A stretch of DNA of 64,000 bases from the NCBI GenBank assembly GCA_028288625.1, contig JAQBNI010000093.1, positions 21,036 to 85,035 on the forward strand, written 5' to 3'. Each line of letters begins with the position of its first letter. The stretch's first letter is position 1. The notes beneath the pieces were generated by a model. That model had not been told where the DNA came from and did no database searches. It saw only the letters and a program-made list of their open reading frames with translations. The stretch is from Bacteroidota bacterium. GTDB lineage: Bacteria > Bacteroidota > Bacteroidia > Chitinophagales > JADIYW01. A program made the translations under genes and the position numbers. Shown here piece by piece: positions 25,316 through 36,278 of the stretch.

Positions 25316-25323
25316 TACTTTTG
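25316..25323 (+). promoter_or_regulatory. -7 box abutting the start codon
   Basis: TACTTTTG matches TAnnTTTG. It ends 6 bases before the ATG at 25330, so transcription would begin at or next to the start codon. Confidence 0.5.
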
Positions 25324-25329
25324 TATCCA

Positions 25330-26319
25330 ATGAGATACCTTCTTTTCCTTTTATTATTTTTTCCATTTCTTTCAAAGGCACAGGATATTGACGGCAAATG
25401 GACGGGCACATTTGTTCAGTACATTCACAATACATATGATGTTGAGTTGATCGTACAAAAATTGCCTGCGGGAAATACATTTTCTGCACGTTTAAAAATT
25501 ACTGATGGTCGTTATTTTGGTGAATTCCAGATAAGCGGATTTATTTGCGAGAAACAAAACCTCGAAATATCAACTATAATTTTAGTAAGGGAAAATGACA
25601 ACAGCACCTGGATAGATTGCCTTGACGGTACTTTTGATCTCAATGAAGATGAAAATGAATTGACATTTGGAGATACGTGGCTACAAAAATATAAAAGAAA
25701 CAATACGTGTAAGCTGAAATTTATTCAGAAAGATATGTTCCAATGTCTGCGGTCTGCATATTTCCGTAAAGAAAAATATCCTGAGGCTGTAGCGGAATTT
25801 GAAAAATTCTGGAATGAAAACAACACTCAAAGACCTAAACCTGCTTCTCCGAATGAGCCCGGAAAAATTGCAAAAGCTGAAACTCCTGTATTACCGAAGG
25901 AAATGAAATCGGAAACCAGGATCGTAGAAAAAAATGAGGATCGTGCGCCGGTGATCGACACTTTTGAAAGCATCAAAATGCGCCCCGTTATTGTAAAAGA
26001 TGAAATTGAAGTAAGCAGCGCAGATATCACTATTGAATACTGGGACAGGTATACTGAAGATGGCGACTCCATTAATTTATTTATGAATAAAACACTCATA
26101 CTGGAAAATGTCCGGCTTACAAAGGTGAAGAAAAGCATACAGGTTCACCTCGACCAAAAAAATAATTATCTTGTCGTCCATGCGGTAAATCTTGGTACCG
26201 AGCCGCCGAACACGGCATCTGTTACGGTAAAAGATGGAAAAAAGATCCAAAACGTTTCGCTAACATCTAACCTGAGAACAAGCGGGGGGCTAAAGATCAC
26301 TCTAAAAAAATCTCCCTGA
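25330..26319 (+). CDS. Exported protein of unknown function
   Basis: A 329-residue protein with a clear signal peptide (MRYLLFLLLFFPFLSKAQ). Residues 19-130 start with IDGKWTGTF and alternate like an antiparallel beta barrel or sandwich, including several cysteines. A short helical stretch (140-165) and a Lys/Pro/Glu-rich linker follow. The last 95 residues form a second beta-rich domain with EYWDRYTEDGDSINLF and LRTSGGLKITL. I do not recognise either domain with certainty. The protein is probably periplasmic or at the surface. The ATG at 25330 is preferred over a TTG at 25321 inside the promoter box. Confidence 0.75.
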   Translation: MRYLLFLLLFFPFLSKAQDIDGKWTGTFVQYIHNTYDVELIVQKLPAGNTFSARLKITDGRYFGEFQISGFICEKQNLEISTIILVRENDNSTWIDCLDGTFDLNEDENELTFGDTWLQKYKRNNTCKLKFIQKDMFQCLRSAYFRKEKYPEAVAEFEKFWNENNTQRPKPASPNEPGKIAKAETPVLPKEMKSETRIVEKNEDRAPVIDTFESIKMRPVIVKDEIEVSSADITIEYWDRYTEDGDSINLFMNKTLILENVRLTKVKKSIQVHLDQKNNYLVVHAVNLGTEPPNTASVTVKDGKKIQNVSLTSNLRTSGGLKITLKKSP

Positions 26320-26731: not shown

Positions 26732-26760
26732 AAGTCGCAACATTACGTTGCGACTTTTTT
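26732..26760 (+). terminator. Rho-independent terminator after rpmE2
   Basis: Perfect 10-bp stem AAGTCGCAAC / GTTGCGACTT (26732-26741, 26747-26756) with a 5-base loop is followed by a T-run. It lies 28 bases after the stop. Confidence 0.95.
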
Positions 26761-26771
26761 ATTTTTACACT

Positions 26772-27962
26772 ATGCCGATCCAACACCTTGTTCTTTTTGA
26801 CGGAATAGAGCGCAACAATTTACTTCCCCTGGCAGCTACCCGCGCACTTGCGGATTTCCGGGTTGGTATTTTAACCATCCGCGAAAAATGGGAAAAGCAT
26901 TTTCACATGCCCGCAGATATTCTTACACAGGAATACTTACAACCAAAATATCACTATACGCAAAAAGATAAATGCGTTTTTATCAATGCCTGCATTTTAC
27001 CGGATATGGTATTGCTAAATGAAATAGAAAAGCTGCCGGATAATTCAGTGCTCAAAGATCAAAACACGATCATCGCCATAAAAACCGATGCAACGATAAA
27101 TAACCTGGATGACCTGTTGAAGACAGATACAGCAAATGTAAAAAATGTAAAACACGATATCCAGATCCGGTTTCCGTGGCATATTTTTATACTGAACGGA
27201 CAGGAGATCAAAAGCGATATTGAATTGATGCAATTAAAACCTAACGGTGAGATGTTATCAAAAAGCAACACGATCTTCGGGATGGAAAATGTGTATGTTA
27301 ACGGTAAGATATCCTGCGAATGCGCTGTGATCAACGCAACAAAAGGTCCCGTGTATTTAGGACGGGAAAGCGAGATCATGGAAGGGACTACGATTCGCGG
27401 CAGTTTTGCGCTTGGCGAACAATCTACATTAAAAATGCAGAGTAAGATATATGGCGATACAACTATTGGTCCGCATTGCAAAGTTGGCGGAGAGCTAAGT
27501 AACGTAGTCATGTTTGGATACAGCAACAAAGCACATGATGGTTTTTTAGGAAACTCTGTAATAGGCGAGTGGTGTAATCTTGGGGCAGATACAAACAATT
27601 CCAATCTTAAAAATGATTACGGAAATGTAAAAGCGTGGAATTATACCGCTAAGGAGTTTATAAATACAAGCCTGCAGTTTTGTGGCTTGATCATGGGAGA
27701 CCATACTAAAAGCAGTATCAATACCATGTTTAATACCGGTACAGTAACAGGAGTTGGCGCTAATGTGTTTGGAAGCGGTTTCCCTCCTAAATTTATTCCC
27801 GATTTTTCATGGGGCGGAGCGCAGGGCTTTGAAGTTTTCACTTTGGAAAAAGTAAATGAAGTTGCACAGCGCGTTATGGAAAGAAGAGGAATAGAATTAA
27901 CGGATATTGATAAAAATATCCTGAAGTATATTTTTGAAGAAACAAAAGAATTCAGAAAGTAG
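26772..27962 (+). CDS. GlmU-like sugar nucleotidyltransferase
   Basis: A 396-residue protein. The N-terminal 180 residues begin LVLFDGIERNNLLPLAATR, the opening of the NTP_transf_4 nucleotidyltransferase-like domain known from Bacteroidota GlmU family proteins. From about 185 the sequence shows hexapeptide-type beta-helix turns (for example ATKGPVYLGRESEIMEG, IYGDTTIGPHCKVGGE). It probably transfers a nucleotide or acyl group to a sugar phosphate; substrate unknown. The start is set at the ATG at 26772, because the open frame upstream runs into the rpmE2 terminator. tpiA follows after 1 base. Confidence 0.82.
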   Translation: MPIQHLVLFDGIERNNLLPLAATRALADFRVGILTIREKWEKHFHMPADILTQEYLQPKYHYTQKDKCVFINACILPDMVLLNEIEKLPDNSVLKDQNTIIAIKTDATINNLDDLLKTDTANVKNVKHDIQIRFPWHIFILNGQEIKSDIELMQLKPNGEMLSKSNTIFGMENVYVNGKISCECAVINATKGPVYLGRESEIMEGTTIRGSFALGEQSTLKMQSKIYGDTTIGPHCKVGGELSNVVMFGYSNKAHDGFLGNSVIGEWCNLGADTNNSNLKNDYGNVKAWNYTAKEFINTSLQFCGLIMGDHTKSSINTMFNTGTVTGVGANVFGSGFPPKFIPDFSWGGAQGFEVFTLEKVNEVAQRVMERRGIELTDIDKNILKYIFEETKEFRK

Positions 27963-27963
27963 C

Positions 27964-28725
27964 ATGAGAAAAAAAATAATTACCGGAAACTGGAAGATGA
28001 ATGCAGATAAAAATGAAGCTGTATCGCTGGTTAACGGTTTATTAGAAAAATATGGAGAATTAAATTTATCTGAAAATAAAATTGTAGTCATTGCGCCGCC
28101 ATTTCCATATATACATTACATCTCTTCCGTGTTTATAAAACATCCTTACTTTTTTGCAGGCGCGCAAAATTGCAGCGAATATGAGAAAGGTGCATACACG
28201 GGAGAAGTTTCCGCGAAGATCATTGCATCCCTGGATGTGAAGTATGTTATTATAGGACACAGCGAGCGGCGGCAATATTTTCGTGAAACCGATGAGATTC
28301 TTTTACAGAAAATTTATCGTGCACAAAAAGAAAAACTCATCCCGATCTTTTGCTGCGGTGAATCTCTCGAATCAAGAGAAGCCGGAGATCATTTTACTTT
28401 TATAAAAAAACAACTGGATGATTGTGTATTTCATTTGACGGAAGAAGAATTTGGCAATATCGTCATCGCTTATGAACCCATATGGGCGATAGGTACAGGA
28501 AAGACTGCTTCACCCGAACAGGCTCAGGAAGTACATCAATTCATAAGACAGCAGATCAAAGAAAAATATAGCGAATCAACCGCGGAACAAACGACCATAC
28601 TTTATGGAGGCAGCGTAACAGCAAAAAATGCATCCGAATTATTTGCAGAAAAAGATATTGACGGAGGATTGGTTGGCGGCGCCTCACTCAAAGCTGATGA
28701 ATTCGCAGCAATCATTAAAGCGTAA
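27964..28725 (+). CDS. tpiA: Triosephosphate isomerase
   Basis: Interconverts dihydroxyacetone phosphate and glyceraldehyde 3-phosphate. The 253-residue barrel shows GNWKMN (with the catalytic Lys), IIGHSERRQYF (catalytic His) and AYEPIWAIGTGKTAS (catalytic Glu), plus LYGGSVTAKNA and GGLVGGASLK for phosphate binding. The ATG at 27964 gives the canonical MRKKIITGNWKMN start. It lies in a row with the GlmU-like gene and prmA. Confidence 0.97.
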   Translation: MRKKIITGNWKMNADKNEAVSLVNGLLEKYGELNLSENKIVVIAPPFPYIHYISSVFIKHPYFFAGAQNCSEYEKGAYTGEVSAKIIASLDVKYVIIGHSERRQYFRETDEILLQKIYRAQKEKLIPIFCCGESLESREAGDHFTFIKKQLDDCVFHLTEEEFGNIVIAYEPIWAIGTGKTASPEQAQEVHQFIRQQIKEKYSESTAEQTTILYGGSVTAKNASELFAEKDIDGGLVGGASLKADEFAAIIKA

Positions 28726-28747
28726 AATTTCTTTCACAAATTATAAA

Positions 28748-29569
28748 ATGACTTACATCTTCCACATACCTTATCCTGTCGAAATTGAAAATGAAGAGTT
28801 TTCGGGATTATTTTCTGCTTTGGATATTGAAGGAATGGAAGAAAAAGAAAATGAATTGTGTATTTATTTAGATGAAACTGTTGCTGAAGAAGGCGAAACT
28901 TTGATCCGCGAAATTTGCGACAGCTATAAGCTTTCTTATCAAAAAGAAGAACTCGAAAATAAAAACTGGAACCAGCAATGGGAAAGCAGTTTTCAACCGA
29001 TGCAGATCGATGATTTTGTTTTAGTACGAACTACATTTCATCCTGAAAATAAAAATGTGCAATACGAGATCATTATAGAACCGAAGATGTCATTCGGTAC
29101 CGGGCATCATCCGACCACTGCACAAATGATCAGAAGCATGCGCTTGCTTGATCTTAGAAATAAATCGGTATTGGATTGCGGCTCCGGTACCGGGATCTTA
29201 TCTGTGCTTGCAGAAAAAATGGGAGCGAAAAACTGCATCGCTCTCGATAATGATATATGGTGTTACCAGAACTGCATAGAAAATATTGAATTGAATGAAA
29301 GCCTTGTTGTACAGCCGCAGACCGGCGAACTGGAAACTGTAAAAGATTATACTTTTGATTGTATTTTAGCAAATATCCACAGGAACTTTTTAACAGCGAA
29401 TATGTCTATATTATCGCAGCTTTTAATATCAAACGGCAACCTGCTGGTTTCCGGTTTTTATTCAGAAGATGCAAAGCTCATTTTAGATAAGGCTTTGGAA
29501 TATGATTTGATAGCTAACTATCACACATCGCAAGACAACTGGGATTGTATTGTATTCAAGAAAAAATAA
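28748..29569 (+). CDS. prmA: Ribosomal protein L11 methyltransferase
   Basis: SAM-dependent methyltransferase that trimethylates L11 lysines. The 273 residues show the substrate-recognition N-terminal part, the PrmA signature MSFGTGHHPTT, the SAM motif VLDCGSGTGILS and ANIHRNF (in place of NIL/NPP-type motif IV). The ATG at 28748 begins with YIFHIPYPVE; the open frame upstream is the tpiA region out of frame. Four bases separate it from the next gene. Confidence 0.93.
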   Translation: MTYIFHIPYPVEIENEEFSGLFSALDIEGMEEKENELCIYLDETVAEEGETLIREICDSYKLSYQKEELENKNWNQQWESSFQPMQIDDFVLVRTTFHPENKNVQYEIIIEPKMSFGTGHHPTTAQMIRSMRLLDLRNKSVLDCGSGTGILSVLAEKMGAKNCIALDNDIWCYQNCIENIELNESLVVQPQTGELETVKDYTFDCILANIHRNFLTANMSILSQLLISNGNLLVSGFYSEDAKLILDKALEYDLIANYHTSQDNWDCIVFKKK

Positions 29570-29573
29570 AAAA

Positions 29574-32500
29574 ATGCGTAAACTGTTTTTCACCCTTAGC
29601 TTTTTCCTGGCGGCTTATCAATTTACATTCGCGCAATACCCGAAAGAATTCCCGGGTGATAATGCAGGTTTCGGAAAAGCTTATGCTGAATTTATAAAAA
29701 CATGCACGCGGGATGATTGCAAGCAGGTAGCAGAAAAATTTCCTGCGACAATTACTTCCGGAAAAGCATCAACCTATTTTTTTAAAATAAAAGGAATTAC
29801 ACAATCCATACTCGTTAAGAAAGCTCCGGCATATCCCGTCTTCATGCAATTTGCAACATTATTAATGACCCTTGATGCTACAAAAGCAGGAGGAGCTGCG
29901 ATTGATAAAAATTTTGATATCCTGCAATCGATTATAGACAAATCTAAACCCGGCAATTTAAAAGAGTTCAGTAATTATATCGAATATCTTACGAACCTTT
30001 ATTCAAAGAATGCCTTGTATTACACCAATACCAATGCATGGCAGGCTACCGGAGATTATACAGTGGATTTTAAAGATGACAAACCTGTTTTTACTTTTTC
30101 TTCTACTGATCTTATTGGTACATCCACTGCTGATACATTAACTATAAAGAATGAGCGCGGTAAATATTATCCGTTAGAAAATTTATGGGTAGGTACGAAT
30201 GGCACCATTACTTTACAGCGTGCAGGATTCGACCCTACGAATAATTTTGTCAACTTTAGTAACCACCAGATCAATTTTACTAAATCAGATATCGTTATTG
30301 ATTCTGCAAAATTTACTTTCAAGCCTGTTTTAAATGAAGTGTTATTAGGAACATACATAGATAAATTATTACAAGCAAGATCGCAGGAAAAGTTATATCC
30401 GAAATTTCGTTCTTACAGCAACAACGTAAACTTCAATACATTCGGAAAGGAAATTAAATTCAGCGGCGGCTTTCAACTCGAAGGCACTAATATTTATGGC
30501 GTAGGATCGGATACCATTCTTCCGAGAATTTCCCTCTCAGGAAAAGATGGAAAAGAAGTGGTTCGCGTTGCTGCAAAACGAATACAGATTAAAGATTTTA
30601 AAGACATCAGTATAGAAGATGCCTCGATGACGATCCTTCTAAAAGATAATACGATCAGCCACCCGTTTGTAAATTTTACTTACTACTCAAAAACCAAGGA
30701 TATAAAAGTTTATCGCGATGTTAAGCCCTTGTCGAAACAGCCTTTCACCAGTGAGTATCACAAAATGTTTTTATATATAGATGAGCTGAAATGGAATTTA
30801 GACAGTACAACAATGAAGTTCAGCATGATCACTTTGTCCGGCGATAAACCTGCAGTGTTTGAATCGTTCAATTATTATCAGCCTAATCTAGAAAATAAAT
30901 ATAAAGGACCATCGGAACAGGGACCCATCGATAAAATTTATCGCGCCTATGAAGGCAGCGGCGACCGTTTCGTTGATGCGCAGGGATTAGCGCTGGATAT
31001 CAATCCCGGTGCGCCCTTTTCAGCAACGCAGCCAATATTTTTTAAATTGATGGAGGACGGTTATATCAATTATGATCCAAACCTGCGACGCATTGAAGTA
31101 AAAGAAAAACTCGTTAACCAGGCGTTGGCTGCACGGGGAAAACAGGATTACGATTTTATAAAATTCGCATCCTTTAAAAGAAACCTCAATGCCATTCTGG
31201 ATATCAAATCAAATATTCTTGAGGTGTATGGTGTGGAAGAAATTAATATGAGTACGAAATCGGGTGTGAAGTTTATTCCGAATAACGATACTGTAAGGAT
31301 CGGAAAAAATCGTGTGATGACGTTGGGTGGAAAAATTGTTGCCGGCAAATTTGATTTCGTCGCAAAAAAAGTAGATTTCGATTATGATACTTATGCATTC
31401 AATATGAAGAATGTGGATTCAATGGTGATCTATATTCCGGAAGGAAACGGAAAGCCGAATGAAAGAGGAGAGGTAAAACTTATCCGCTCAAAATCGCCTA
31501 TTCAAAATATTACAGGCTCGTTGCATATTGCTGCACCAAATAATAAATCGGGAACTAACAACGACAGGAAATATCCGTTTTTCTCCAGCGGCGATACGGC
31601 AAAAGTGTTTTATGATAAAGGACAAAACGGGGATAAATACAACAAGGATAAATTTTATTACCAGGTCTTTCCTTTTGAGCTCGATAGTTTAAATGAGATC
31701 GTTACGGAAAACCTGCAATTGAGTGGTCAGCTGATCTCAGGTGGTATCTTCCAGCCTATACAAACAGGTTTAAAATTGCAGGAGGATAAATCGTTTGGGA
31801 TTAACGTGGAGACAGGTTCTAAAGGCTACAACCTGTTTGGAAACAAGGGAAAATATACTTCTGATATCAACCTGAACAGTAATGGCTTGTCCGGAAAAGG
31901 ATTGTTTGAATTCGGTCCGGCAAAACTCTATGCGGACACTGCATTCTTCTTCATGGATAGTGTGTACGCACAACTGGATAGCGTCAGAATTACGGAAGAT
32001 AAAACAGCGAATTTACCGCAGACAAATATTAACCAGTCGTCCTTCACTTGGAATGTCAAAAAAGATTCGTTGGTGATATCGGAAGGCAAGGATGAAAAAT
32101 TTGCGATGTATAACGGGACAACAATATTCGACGGTAAACTCATCCTCAATAATAAAAATTTATATGGTGTTGGCGTGCTTTCCTGGAACAGAACAAAATT
32201 ACAATCTGATGACATCACTTTCCGCGCAAAACAAATGGATGCAAAAAAAGGAAAGTTGAATTTAACGACGGATGATGGTCGATCGTTGCTGGCATCGAAC
32301 GATGTGAATGCGAATTTCGACGTTGACAAAAAAGTGGCAAATATTGAATTAAATAAAAGTGATACCATTCCGCTTGAATCTTTCAAATATGTAGCAAATC
32401 CTAAATTCCTGCGTTTTGATCTCGCAAATAACAAGCTTACGTTGAATGCAGTTTCACCGACGGCAAAATTCTTTTTGTTATCCACTGATCCCTCAAAAGA

Positions 32501-34412
32501 CTCTTTAAAATTTGTTACTGCTGAAGCGGAATTAAATCTGAATGACAATTCTATTCACTTTGCAGGGATTAATGAATTGCGTTTAGCGGATTCCAAAATT
32601 ATTCCGGATAAGGGAGAGATATTTATTGAACAGGACGGAACTGTGCGCACTTTAAAAAATGCACAGGTCTTATTTAATGCAGATAGTTCTTATCATACGG
32701 TGAAGGATGCGGAAATAACTATTGTAGGCAGGAATGAATTTTCGGGAATGGGAAATTATTATTTCAAAATGAATAATGGCAGTATTGAAACAGTGCCTGT
32801 AGCGGAAATTAATGTCAATAATCCGTACAAAGGACAATCGGTGCAGGAAGGTAAAAAAGGAAAGAGAGTGGTTGCAGAAGCAAGAGATATGAGCAAGATC
32901 TTTACGTTTGCAAAAACAAGTATTCCTGAAGAGGCAAATTTCAAGCTGGATAATAAGATCTACTATAAAGGCAAATTCGATTTCGATTCAAAACATAAAG
33001 ATATTTTCCTCGATGGAGCTGTGAAGATAGATATTGCAAGCAGTTCGAGCGATTGGATCCCGAACGTCCAGGCGCTCGATCCTAAGAAACCTGCGATCAG
33101 CATGGACAGTATTCTGAGCCAGGCAAACAATTTATTTGTCGGGTTGATGCTCGATAAAAGTATTCCTGAATTTTATCCCGCAGTTTTGCAGGATAAGCGA
33201 AATCCAAGCGATGCAAGTATCGTCACAATTAAGGGATCGATGGCATACAGCAAAACTGAGCCGAACATTATAATATTCGGAGATGAAAATGCTTTCCGTT
33301 CGCAATATTCTCATAGCTCTTGTTTGAAATACAACGAGAATACAAAACAAATTGATGCGGCAGGAGAAATTGGTTTTGGACTGAAGGTAGAACCATGCAA
33401 AATTACCACAGTAGGTAATTTATCCTTCACACCGGGAAATCAAAACCTCGAGGTGCCTGCTGATCTTGCAATTAAATTTATGATGAAGGATGATATTGCA
33501 AATTCGATCATCAACGATTTTGTTTTATCGGATAGCGTAGCCACTTTTGTGGGATACAAGCGAAATAAATCGATCCAGAGAACAATGTCTGTTTTAACAA
33601 AGGACACACTGGAATCGAACAGGCTGATCGCCGGTTTATTTATGGGTGATTCTATGTTTATCCCGCATAGCTTTAATTACAATCTCCTATTCAACGGCAC
33701 AAAATTTTATTGGGATGCTCAGGATGCTTCCTTTAAAAGTGTTGAAAAGATCAGTATTGCTATTTTCGGAAGTTATGTAGTTAAAAGACAATACAATGCT
33801 TATGTGGAATTGGGTTACTCAGGCGAAAGTGATTTTGTAAATATTTATTTGCAAAACAAAACGGGTGCATGGTTGTTCTTAAAAATACGGCACGGACAAA
33901 TGGGTGTCGCTTCTTCGATACCGGAGATATATAATACAATAATGATGCAAAAAGATGCAGACAGAGTTTATCGTGAAGGCAAGAATGTTGTGTTTCAGTT
34001 TATGCCGGCAGATCTTGGCTTGCGCGATAATTTTGTAGCGAGAATGGAAGATTTTAAAGAACGCTTTAAAGGCAGATTGATAAATAGCACGGGCACTATG
34101 AATTCACCTTCATATATGCCGCCGGTTTATACAAAACCCCAGGATGTTCCGACACCTCCCGAAAAAACGGAAGCACCGGCAGAAATAAAACCCGCAGAGA
34201 TAAAAGATGATTTTAAAGCAAAGCCTAAAAAACAATTTTCTCTTACGCCGGGATTGGAAAAAACAAAACAGGTTCCTGAAGATACCACCGCACCGGTAGA
34301 AGAAATTCAAAAGGATACTTCGGCAGTAATACCGCAGGATTCTATAACTGTAAAACCTAAACCAAAGGTGAAGACAACTCCTAAAACGGGAACAAAACCG
34401 AAACCGAAATAA
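29574..34412 (+). CDS. Very large exported protein of unknown function
   Basis: A 1612-residue protein, the largest in the window. It has a signal peptide (MRKLFFTLSFFLAAYQFTFAQ). Residues 30-130 are helical-looking, and the long remainder is beta-rich with recurring short strands of the type VxFDYDTYAF, LNLTTDD, LNLNDNSIHF. These are reminiscent of stacked beta sheets as in OstA/AsmA-type bridging proteins, but I see no diagnostic motif. The C-terminal 120 residues are Pro/Lys/Glu/Thr-rich low complexity ending in KTGTKPKPK. It has no obvious type IX C-terminal signal domain. It lies between prmA (4 bases) and the M48 lipoprotein (11 bases), so it is probably co-transcribed with both. Confidence 0.8.
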   Translation: MRKLFFTLSFFLAAYQFTFAQYPKEFPGDNAGFGKAYAEFIKTCTRDDCKQVAEKFPATITSGKASTYFFKIKGITQSILVKKAPAYPVFMQFATLLMTLDATKAGGAAIDKNFDILQSIIDKSKPGNLKEFSNYIEYLTNLYSKNALYYTNTNAWQATGDYTVDFKDDKPVFTFSSTDLIGTSTADTLTIKNERGKYYPLENLWVGTNGTITLQRAGFDPTNNFVNFSNHQINFTKSDIVIDSAKFTFKPVLNEVLLGTYIDKLLQARSQEKLYPKFRSYSNNVNFNTFGKEIKFSGGFQLEGTNIYGVGSDTILPRISLSGKDGKEVVRVAAKRIQIKDFKDISIEDASMTILLKDNTISHPFVNFTYYSKTKDIKVYRDVKPLSKQPFTSEYHKMFLYIDELKWNLDSTTMKFSMITLSGDKPAVFESFNYYQPNLENKYKGPSEQGPIDKIYRAYEGSGDRFVDAQGLALDINPGAPFSATQPIFFKLMEDGYINYDPNLRRIEVKEKLVNQALAARGKQDYDFIKFASFKRNLNAILDIKSNILEVYGVEEINMSTKSGVKFIPNNDTVRIGKNRVMTLGGKIVAGKFDFVAKKVDFDYDTYAFNMKNVDSMVIYIPEGNGKPNERGEVKLIRSKSPIQNITGSLHIAAPNNKSGTNNDRKYPFFSSGDTAKVFYDKGQNGDKYNKDKFYYQVFPFELDSLNEIVTENLQLSGQLISGGIFQPIQTGLKLQEDKSFGINVETGSKGYNLFGNKGKYTSDINLNSNGLSGKGLFEFGPAKLYADTAFFFMDSVYAQLDSVRITEDKTANLPQTNINQSSFTWNVKKDSLVISEGKDEKFAMYNGTTIFDGKLILNNKNLYGVGVLSWNRTKLQSDDITFRAKQMDAKKGKLNLTTDDGRSLLASNDVNANFDVDKKVANIELNKSDTIPLESFKYVANPKFLRFDLANNKLTLNAVSPTAKFFLLSTDPSKDSLKFVTAEAELNLNDNSIHFAGINELRLADSKIIPDKGEIFIEQDGTVRTLKNAQVLFNADSSYHTVKDAEITIVGRNEFSGMGNYYFKMNNGSIETVPVAEINVNNPYKGQSVQEGKKGKRVVAEARDMSKIFTFAKTSIPEEANFKLDNKIYYKGKFDFDSKHKDIFLDGAVKIDIASSSSDWIPNVQALDPKKPAISMDSILSQANNLFVGLMLDKSIPEFYPAVLQDKRNPSDASIVTIKGSMAYSKTEPNIIIFGDENAFRSQYSHSSCLKYNENTKQIDAAGEIGFGLKVEPCKITTVGNLSFTPGNQNLEVPADLAIKFMMKDDIANSIINDFVLSDSVATFVGYKRNKSIQRTMSVLTKDTLESNRLIAGLFMGDSMFIPHSFNYNLLFNGTKFYWDAQDASFKSVEKISIAIFGSYVVKRQYNAYVELGYSGESDFVNIYLQNKTGAWLFLKIRHGQMGVASSIPEIYNTIMMQKDADRVYREGKNVVFQFMPADLGLRDNFVARMEDFKERFKGRLINSTGTMNSPSYMPPVYTKPQDVPTPPEKTEAPAEIKPAEIKDDFKAKPKKQFSLTPGLEKTKQVPEDTTAPVEEIQKDTSAVIPQDSITVKPKPKVKTTPKTGTKPKPK

Positions 34413-34423
34413 AATTTAATTTT

Positions 34424-35221
34424 ATGAAAAAGCTGATCCTTTTTATATTTTCTCTTGCAATATTCGCATGCAGTCAAAACCCGATAACCGGCAGAAAACA
34501 ATTAATGCTCGTTTCAGATGCACAAATGGATAGCATGGGCTTCCAGGAATACCATCAATTCCTTACAGAAAATAAAACGAAGGTTGCCACAAGCGGTAAT
34601 GACGTAACACTTGTAAAAAAAGTGGGAACCCGGATTGCTGCTGCCGTTACACAATATATGACAGAAAAAGGATTGGCGGATAAAATGAAAGGATACAATT
34701 GGGAGTTTAACCTGGTAAATGATCCTACTGTGAATGCGTGGTGTATGCCAGGAGGAAAAGTTGTGGTGTATTCGGGGTTACTTGCTATCACCAAAAATGA
34801 AACGGGATTGGCAGTGGTTTTAGGACATGAAATTTCACACGCGATAGCAGGTCATGGTAATGAAAGGATGAGTGCGGAAATGGTGCAGCAGTTAGGAATT
34901 TCGGCGCTCGATGCAGCCTTATCCAGCAAACCCGCACAAACCAGGCAATTATTCGAAGGCGCAGTTGGAATGGGAGCGCAGGTAGGTATTATGCTGCCCT
35001 TTAGCAGGAAACAGGAAAGTGAAGCAGATCATATGGGATTGATATTTATGGCGATGGCGGGATATGACCCCAGCTATGCTGTTTCATTCTGGAAAGATAT
35101 GGCTGCTCAAAGCCAGGGCTCACCTCCGGCATTCTTAAGCGATCACCCGAGCGATGCAACAAGAATTAGTGACATTCAAAATAAATTCCTGCCCGAAGCG
35201 CTAAAGTATTACAAGAAGTAA
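34424..35221 (+). CDS. M48 family zinc metalloprotease lipoprotein
   Basis: A 265-residue envelope protease. The lipobox IFAC puts the lipidated cysteine at residue 16, followed by SQNPITGRKQL, a typical start of BepA/LoiP-like M48 lipoproteins. The zinc site HEISH is near 135-139, followed by AIAGHGNERMS; the third ligand is the Glu in ESEADHMG. By analogy with BepA and LoiP it may degrade or help fold misassembled outer membrane proteins. The large secreted protein encoded 11 bases upstream is a possible partner or client; that link is inference. Confidence 0.92.
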   Translation: MKKLILFIFSLAIFACSQNPITGRKQLMLVSDAQMDSMGFQEYHQFLTENKTKVATSGNDVTLVKKVGTRIAAAVTQYMTEKGLADKMKGYNWEFNLVNDPTVNAWCMPGGKVVVYSGLLAITKNETGLAVVLGHEISHAIAGHGNERMSAEMVQQLGISALDAALSSKPAQTRQLFEGAVGMGAQVGIMLPFSRKQESEADHMGLIFMAMAGYDPSYAVSFWKDMAAQSQGSPPAFLSDHPSDATRISDIQNKFLPEALKYYKK

Positions 35222-35621: not shown

Positions 35622-36278
35622 GTGAATCCATTCAAAAAATTGCTCAGCTACCTCATTGATATTCCCATAGAGAAAAGGCAAAGTCAGTACAGCGGAAAAG
35701 TCGCAGTCTCTTTTCACCGGGGACAATACAAGCTCAGTACAAAAAATGCGGTGTATTCCTTCGGAAAAAATTATACTTCTTTTTCTACGGCATTTGATGT
35801 TATTGAAATCCAGGACAAAAAAATAGAAAGCGTTTTAGTACTCGGTTTCGGATTGGGAAGTGTCGTGAATTTGTTTGAAGATCATTCGGAGATAAAAAAT
35901 ATTACAGCAGTAGATGCCGATAAAATAATTATTGAACTTGCAGAAAAATATCTTCATTCACCTCTTAAAAAAAAGATTGAATTTATTTGCCGTGATGCAG
36001 AAACATTTGTGAATTCCCTTCAGCAGAAATACGATCTTGTTTTATTTGATGTATTTATAGACGATGTAACTCCCGCAGAATTTATCCGGAAAGAATTTCT
36101 TTTACAGCTAAAAAAATGCATCAGTAAAAACGGAATTTTGTTGTATTCTAAATTGGAAATTGACAGAAAAAATCAAATTGAAAATGACCAGTTTGGAAAA
36201 ATATTTACAGAAGTTTTTCCGGGATCTTTTTCAATAGATGCAGAAGGGAATAAAATTTTTGTGATTACTAATTACTAA
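35622..36278 (+). CDS. Spermidine synthase-like methyltransferase-fold protein
   Basis: A 218-residue Rossmann-fold protein. VLVLGFGLGSVVNLF (about 70-84) is the nucleotide-binding loop, VDADKIIIELA the acidic ribose-binding strand, and YDLVLFDVFIDDVTP the segment matching the spermidine synthase catalytic Asp region. The N-terminal tetramerisation domain of true SpeE is short, and the substrate-binding Tyr/Asp set cannot be confirmed, so it may be a fold relative with another substrate. The start is GTG at 35622; TATATTTA, one mismatch from a -7 box, lies about 15 bases upstream. Confidence 0.75.
   Translation: MNPFKKLLSYLIDIPIEKRQSQYSGKVAVSFHRGQYKLSTKNAVYSFGKNYTSFSTAFDVIEIQDKKIESVLVLGFGLGSVVNLFEDHSEIKNITAVDADKIIIELAEKYLHSPLKKKIEFICRDAETFVNSLQQKYDLVLFDVFIDDVTPAEFIRKEFLLQLKKCISKNGILLYSKLEIDRKNQIENDQFGKIFTEVFPGSFSIDAEGNKIFVITNY

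Follow-up and report, generated by a model that had tools for sequence, protein, structure and literature searches.

The question of how phospholipids reach the outer membrane has started to find answers only of late, mainly in Proteobacteria, through AsmA-like proteins. These proteins carry an inner-membrane anchor (PMC12045153). The genome of the Bacteroidota bacterium studied here contains OstA, LptC and TamB genes and, apart from all three, a gene for a giant exported protein. This giant gene lies within the window, the whole stretch of 64,000 nucleotides that was analysed, among the following genes:

26748..27962, + strand: glmU-like nucleotidyl/acetyltransferase, often conserved upstream of the giant gene
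27934..28725, + strand: tpiA, triose-phosphate isomerase, conserved upstream of the giant gene
28628..29569, + strand: prmA (ribosomal protein L11 methyltransferase), the neighbour conserved on the upstream side of the giant gene
29574..34412, + strand: giant exported beta-rich protein of an unnamed family (from the frame and its homologs)
34424..35221, + strand: M48 metalloprotease, a LoiP/BepA-like lipoprotein; a minority of genomes have it downstream of the giant gene
35622..36278, + strand: speE-like methyltransferase, usually next downstream in members of the genus

The giant gene is a single uninterrupted frame that opens with the ATG at 29574 and closes with the stop ending at 34412, encoding 1612 residues. 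Its product starts with MRKLFFTLSFFLAAYQFTFA followed by Q, a Bacteroidota-type signal peptide with the end FA/Q, and the Gln at the cleavage-site position is conserved in nearly all N-terminally complete relatives; the Q-rule for Bacteroidetes signal peptides has been described previously (PMC5837995). With the signal peptide removed, the protein is predicted to be soluble and un-anchored. The first-pass annotation had described an exported, beta-rich protein of this length with a Pro/Lys tail and no recognised domain, and the frame, the signal peptide and the predicted strand content agree with that description. The last 117 residues indeed hold 19 Pro and 20 Lys, and this tail looks dispensable because the versions in most congeners stop near residue 1507–1546 without it. 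Searches of Pfam, NCBIfam and PDB sequences, with the protein alone and as a family, likewise returned no meaningful match, and a Pfam scan of 29 family members gave no convincing family match in any of them. The invariant residues of the family are mostly Gly, plus scattered Asp, Pro and Tyr, and an enzyme reading was dropped as these residues include no obvious catalytic cluster.

Full-length homologs with 20–79% identity were found in dozens of genomes, as a rule in one copy per genome, and they share a conserved core of ~1490 residues (about residues 1–1500). The family is present in 55 of the 61 genomes of relatives searched (order Chitinophagales) and, convincingly, in 14 of 393 sampled Bacteroidota genomes, all from the same class; two more matches in the phylum sample (E about 2e-4 and 5e-4, with 50–60 positions covered) were left out of the 14. 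Its distribution is thus patchy across the phylum, and within the order it is core except in family f21 and part of f19. A degenerate-pattern scan for relatives was built on a six-sequence alignment, the 29-sequence alignment being short of conserved stretches. By their labels, the named relatives belong to Chitinophagales, Saprospirales, Sphingobacteriales, Crocinitomicaceae and other Flavobacteriales, and Marinilabiliaceae and other Bacteroidales, with cultured Phaeodactylibacter, Neolewinella and Alkaliflexus among the carriers. A literature search found the family nowhere described. The giant protein is best regarded as real, unnamed and widely conserved, with a predicted fold that is plausibly of the bridge type.

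The structure was predicted with AlphaFold2 on two overlapping pieces, residues 21–1060 and 560–1500, using 49 and 53 sequences, respectively, drawn from the retrieved loci and the window itself. The mean pLDDT was 89.0 and 87.6, with pTM values of 0.63 and 0.57, and the two pieces have the same secondary structure at 98% of the overlap residues. Together with the sequence and a profile self-comparison, the models divide the protein as follows:

29574..29633, + strand: signal peptide, residues 1–20, predicted cleavage before Gln21 (Bacteroidetes Q-rule; from sequence)
29661..30008, + strand: N-terminal helical domain of seven helices, residues 30–145 (AlphaFold2 model)
30033..30866, + strand: first beta region, residues 154–431 (AlphaFold2 model)
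30444..30869, + strand: internal repeat R1, residues 291–432 (profile self-comparison)
30888..31133, + strand: helical insertion, residues 439–520 (AlphaFold2 model)
31161..33479, + strand: second long beta region, residues 530–1302 (AlphaFold2 models, both pieces)
31815..32000, + strand: internal repeat R2, residues 748–809 (profile self-comparison, E 2e-9 against R3)
32112..32486, + strand: internal repeat R3, residues 847–971 (profile self-comparison)
33489..33644, + strand: helical hairpin, residues 1306–1357 (AlphaFold2 model)
33684..34070, + strand: C-terminal beta region, ended by a closing helix, residues 1371–1499 (AlphaFold2 model, alignment)
34071..34409, + strand: Pro/Lys-rich low-complexity tail, residues 1500–1612 (sequence; absent or different in most relatives)

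Residues 155–1480 are predicted to be 50% strand and 11% helix. In the models, the N-terminal helical domain is followed by about 96 strands of at least three residues, 34 of which have at least eight. The second beta region has a short low-confidence break near residues 1091–1102, and the closing helix (residues 1481–1499) marks the end of the conserved core at residue 1499. Prediction in overlapping pieces, a check proposed in the first-pass annotation, gave an extended all-beta protein and not separate adhesin domains. A strand module occurs three times along the chain (E 2e-9 to 2e-5 in the self-comparison), and the alternation of hydrophobic and polar residues in 45 strands exceeds that of within-strand shuffles (z 5.4), although amphipathic strands also fit ordinary beta sandwiches. 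By arithmetic only, two sheets of about 48 strands each at 4.8 Å per strand could form a rod near the width of the periplasm.

Foldseek comparison of the first piece with the PDB returned, as its local matches of highest quality, LptC (3my2; probability 1.00, TM on target 0.53, r.m.s.d. 3.5; and 6mit chain C; probability 1.00, TM on target 0.51) and LptA (2r19_B; probability 0.99, TM on target 0.58, r.m.s.d. 4.6), these LptC/LptA matches being local and with weak E-values of 0.01–0.12. The same piece matched LptD repeatedly (E 2e-5 to 8e-4, TM only 0.09–0.18), and the second piece gave weak matches to LptD and ApoB100. In a viral library, second and third place go to VPS13-like chorein-domain proteins (E 4e-5 and 1e-4; TM 0.12 and 0.16–0.17). 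The best E-value belongs to teneurin; teneurin and tail-fibre matches, at TM 0.04–0.10, were set aside as noise. Since full-length TM scores are low (0.06–0.17) and teneurin stands on top, the global matches may reflect long antiparallel beta meanders and nothing more. Two separate structure libraries point to groove-type folds that handle lipid. The long beta groove that had been proposed from the sequence gains some support from the extended all-beta AlphaFold2 model, the local LptC/LptA matches and the global LptD/chorein matches, while the groove itself is something we infer from these models.

By gene order, the conserved partner of the giant gene is prmA and not the M48 gene. Only 4 bases separate the end of prmA from the start of the giant gene, and prmA is directly upstream on the same strand in 56 of the 68 loci with enough upstream sequence, with tpiA ahead of it in most of them and often the glmU-like gene as well; the first-pass annotation had passed over this neighbour. 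(In all locus counts, loci noticed as found by two routes were entered once, and a few closely related species are still included.) Downstream, the order is variable: among 57 loci, plsY is directly next in 10, the speE-like gene follows in 8, and the M48 gene lies immediately 3′ in 6 and at most two genes away in 10. The fullest order, in locus L066, reads glmU-like, tpiA, prmA, giant gene, plsY, M48, speE-like. The name plsY rests on the gene's own sequence and, in other genomes, on its match to the G3P_acyltransf family. It does not occur in the window, and PF02660 was not found in 11 of 17 Bacteroidia genomes, the window's own among them, where another acyltransferase presumably takes its place. 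Two genomes that lack the giant gene keep parts of this order: G057 (L153:9181-11604) has prmA, about 20 bases, plsY and then M48, and G032 (L152:9567-11133) retains plsY-M48 with prmA not beside them. The G057 arrangement appears to be an empty site for the giant gene. We also noted a 332-residue frame at 25321-26319 of the window, upstream of the glmU-like gene, which has no Pfam match and a weak relative in locus L091. An OstA (LptA-like) gene lies about 23–33 kb from the giant gene in G005:C6 and G020:C6 (loci L007, L123, L014 and L119), and the two genes are on separate contigs in the other genomes checked.

The explanation that we tentatively prefer is that the giant protein is a soluble beta-groove protein of the periplasm that deals, between the two membranes, with lipid or outer-membrane protein. 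The strands would stack into a long trough lined by hydrophobic side chains, and this trough would either carry lipid acyl chains (of phospholipid or LPS) or shield unfolded outer-membrane protein between both membranes. The protein would reside in the periplasm in soluble form and may dock on partners via its helical N-terminal domain and its C-terminal end. The explanation builds on an export signal, a conserved full-length core and strand repeats, together with some 96 confidently predicted, largely amphipathic strands and a local LptC/LptA-like fold in the predicted structure. By analogy, lipid seems a likelier cargo than outer-membrane protein for two reasons: the closest folds (LptA, LptC, LptD and chorein rods) are lipid movers, and plsY, which encodes the first acyltransferase of phospholipid synthesis, recurs directly downstream of the giant gene. 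Counting against such a link, plsY is a neighbour only in a minority of loci, and prmA and tpiA are housekeeping genes. It is conceivable, if doubtful, that the protein represents a novel kind of lipid bridge, a single chain of about 1,500 residues that would span the periplasm without an anchor and that many Bacteroidota would use alongside Lpt and TamB. The giant gene is core in a major order of diderms, where it accompanies Lpt and TamB and does not replace them, and its clean absence from neighbouring families offers a direct genetic test of another bridge in Bacteroidota.

The first-pass annotation had also coupled the giant protein to the M48 protease, and a functional pair of the two now appears very improbable. 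The M48 gene does begin 11 bases past the stop of the giant gene, as annotated, and adjoins it also in loci L009, L010, L011, L024 and L072; its product matches Pfam Peptidase_M48 at 2.4e-34, with BepA/LoiP NCBIfam matches below model cut-offs. The co-occurrence check, however, came out against the coupling: immediate adjacency is confined to 6 of 57 loci, and five congeners (L003, L005-L008) have the giant gene followed directly by the speE-like gene, with M48 missing there. M48 genes of the same type are also kept in genomes without the giant gene, beside plsY in two cases, and genome G014 carries the giant gene with zero M48 matches. From order alone, we infer as the simplest reading that these genes once formed one old block and that the giant gene, plsY and M48 were each lost from it separately. 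On this evidence, the M48 protease is a neighbour of the giant gene and not a conserved partner.

Two further readings retain the beta-rich protein and change its role. In one, which is rather unlikely, it is a large beta protein of many domains that serves a structural purpose or acts at the surface (as cell-surface layer, adhesin or matrix), and its likeness to Lpt proteins is a generic feature of antiparallel beta meanders. Teneurin as the top Foldseek match, the low global TM scores and the low-complexity tail would suit such a role. Adhesins change fast, however, whereas the giant gene is single-copy and conserved over its whole length at one position across the entire order, and adhesin, Ig-like and type IX sorting domains gave Pfam matches in 0 of the 29 members. 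The other reading, also unlikely, is a scaffold for outer-membrane protein assembly whose groove or strands would escort unfolded barrel proteins to BAM or TamL; in the genomes that keep it nearby, the M48 lipoprotein may serve as a quality-control protease. TamB with TamL, a comparable beta-groove system, has been linked to the homeostasis of outer-membrane proteins in Bacteroidota (PMC12045153), and the BepA/LoiP-like protease adjoins the giant gene in some genomes; against this, the M48 linkage is unconserved, no POTRA or barrel domain was recognised by Pfam in the 29 family members, and TamB and lpt genes exist separately.

Set beside the known systems, the giant protein shows, at weak E-values, a local predicted likeness to the beta-jellyroll bridge proteins LptA and LptC. 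It has amphipathic strands as they do, and it is exported and predicted to be un-anchored as is LptA, but it is about eight to ten times longer and adds a helical domain and insertions. Profile comparison of the family with OstA, LptC and TamB found no homology, the hhalign probability against OstA and LptC staying at or below about 1%, whereas the positive control, OstA against LptC, scored 84%; PF13100 (OstA) and PF06835 (LptC) matched 0 of 29 members. LptD gave repeated Foldseek matches over long stretches at TM of only 0.08–0.18, and in contrast to the LptD barrel there is no evidence of a transmembrane barrel in the giant protein. The TamB (DUF490) and AsmA Pfam domains were not found in the protein or the 29 members, and TamB is a separate gene in 17 of 17 genomes tested. 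In these 17 genomes a second TamB copy occurs in 4 of 5 without the giant gene and in 4 of 12 with it, a tendency that is at most a weak hint from too few genomes and confounded by kinship. An identity as LptA/OstA, LptC or TamB was ruled out by the profiles, the separate genes and the predicted lack of an anchor. In size, repeated strand pattern and elongated all-beta prediction, the giant protein resembles TamB/AsmA and the VPS13/chorein proteins, the chorein-domain proteins giving a weak full-length structural match. Where TamB/AsmA have an inner-membrane anchor, the giant protein instead has a signal peptide with a predicted cleavage site and, because of the conserved Gln at that site, would be free of such an anchor.
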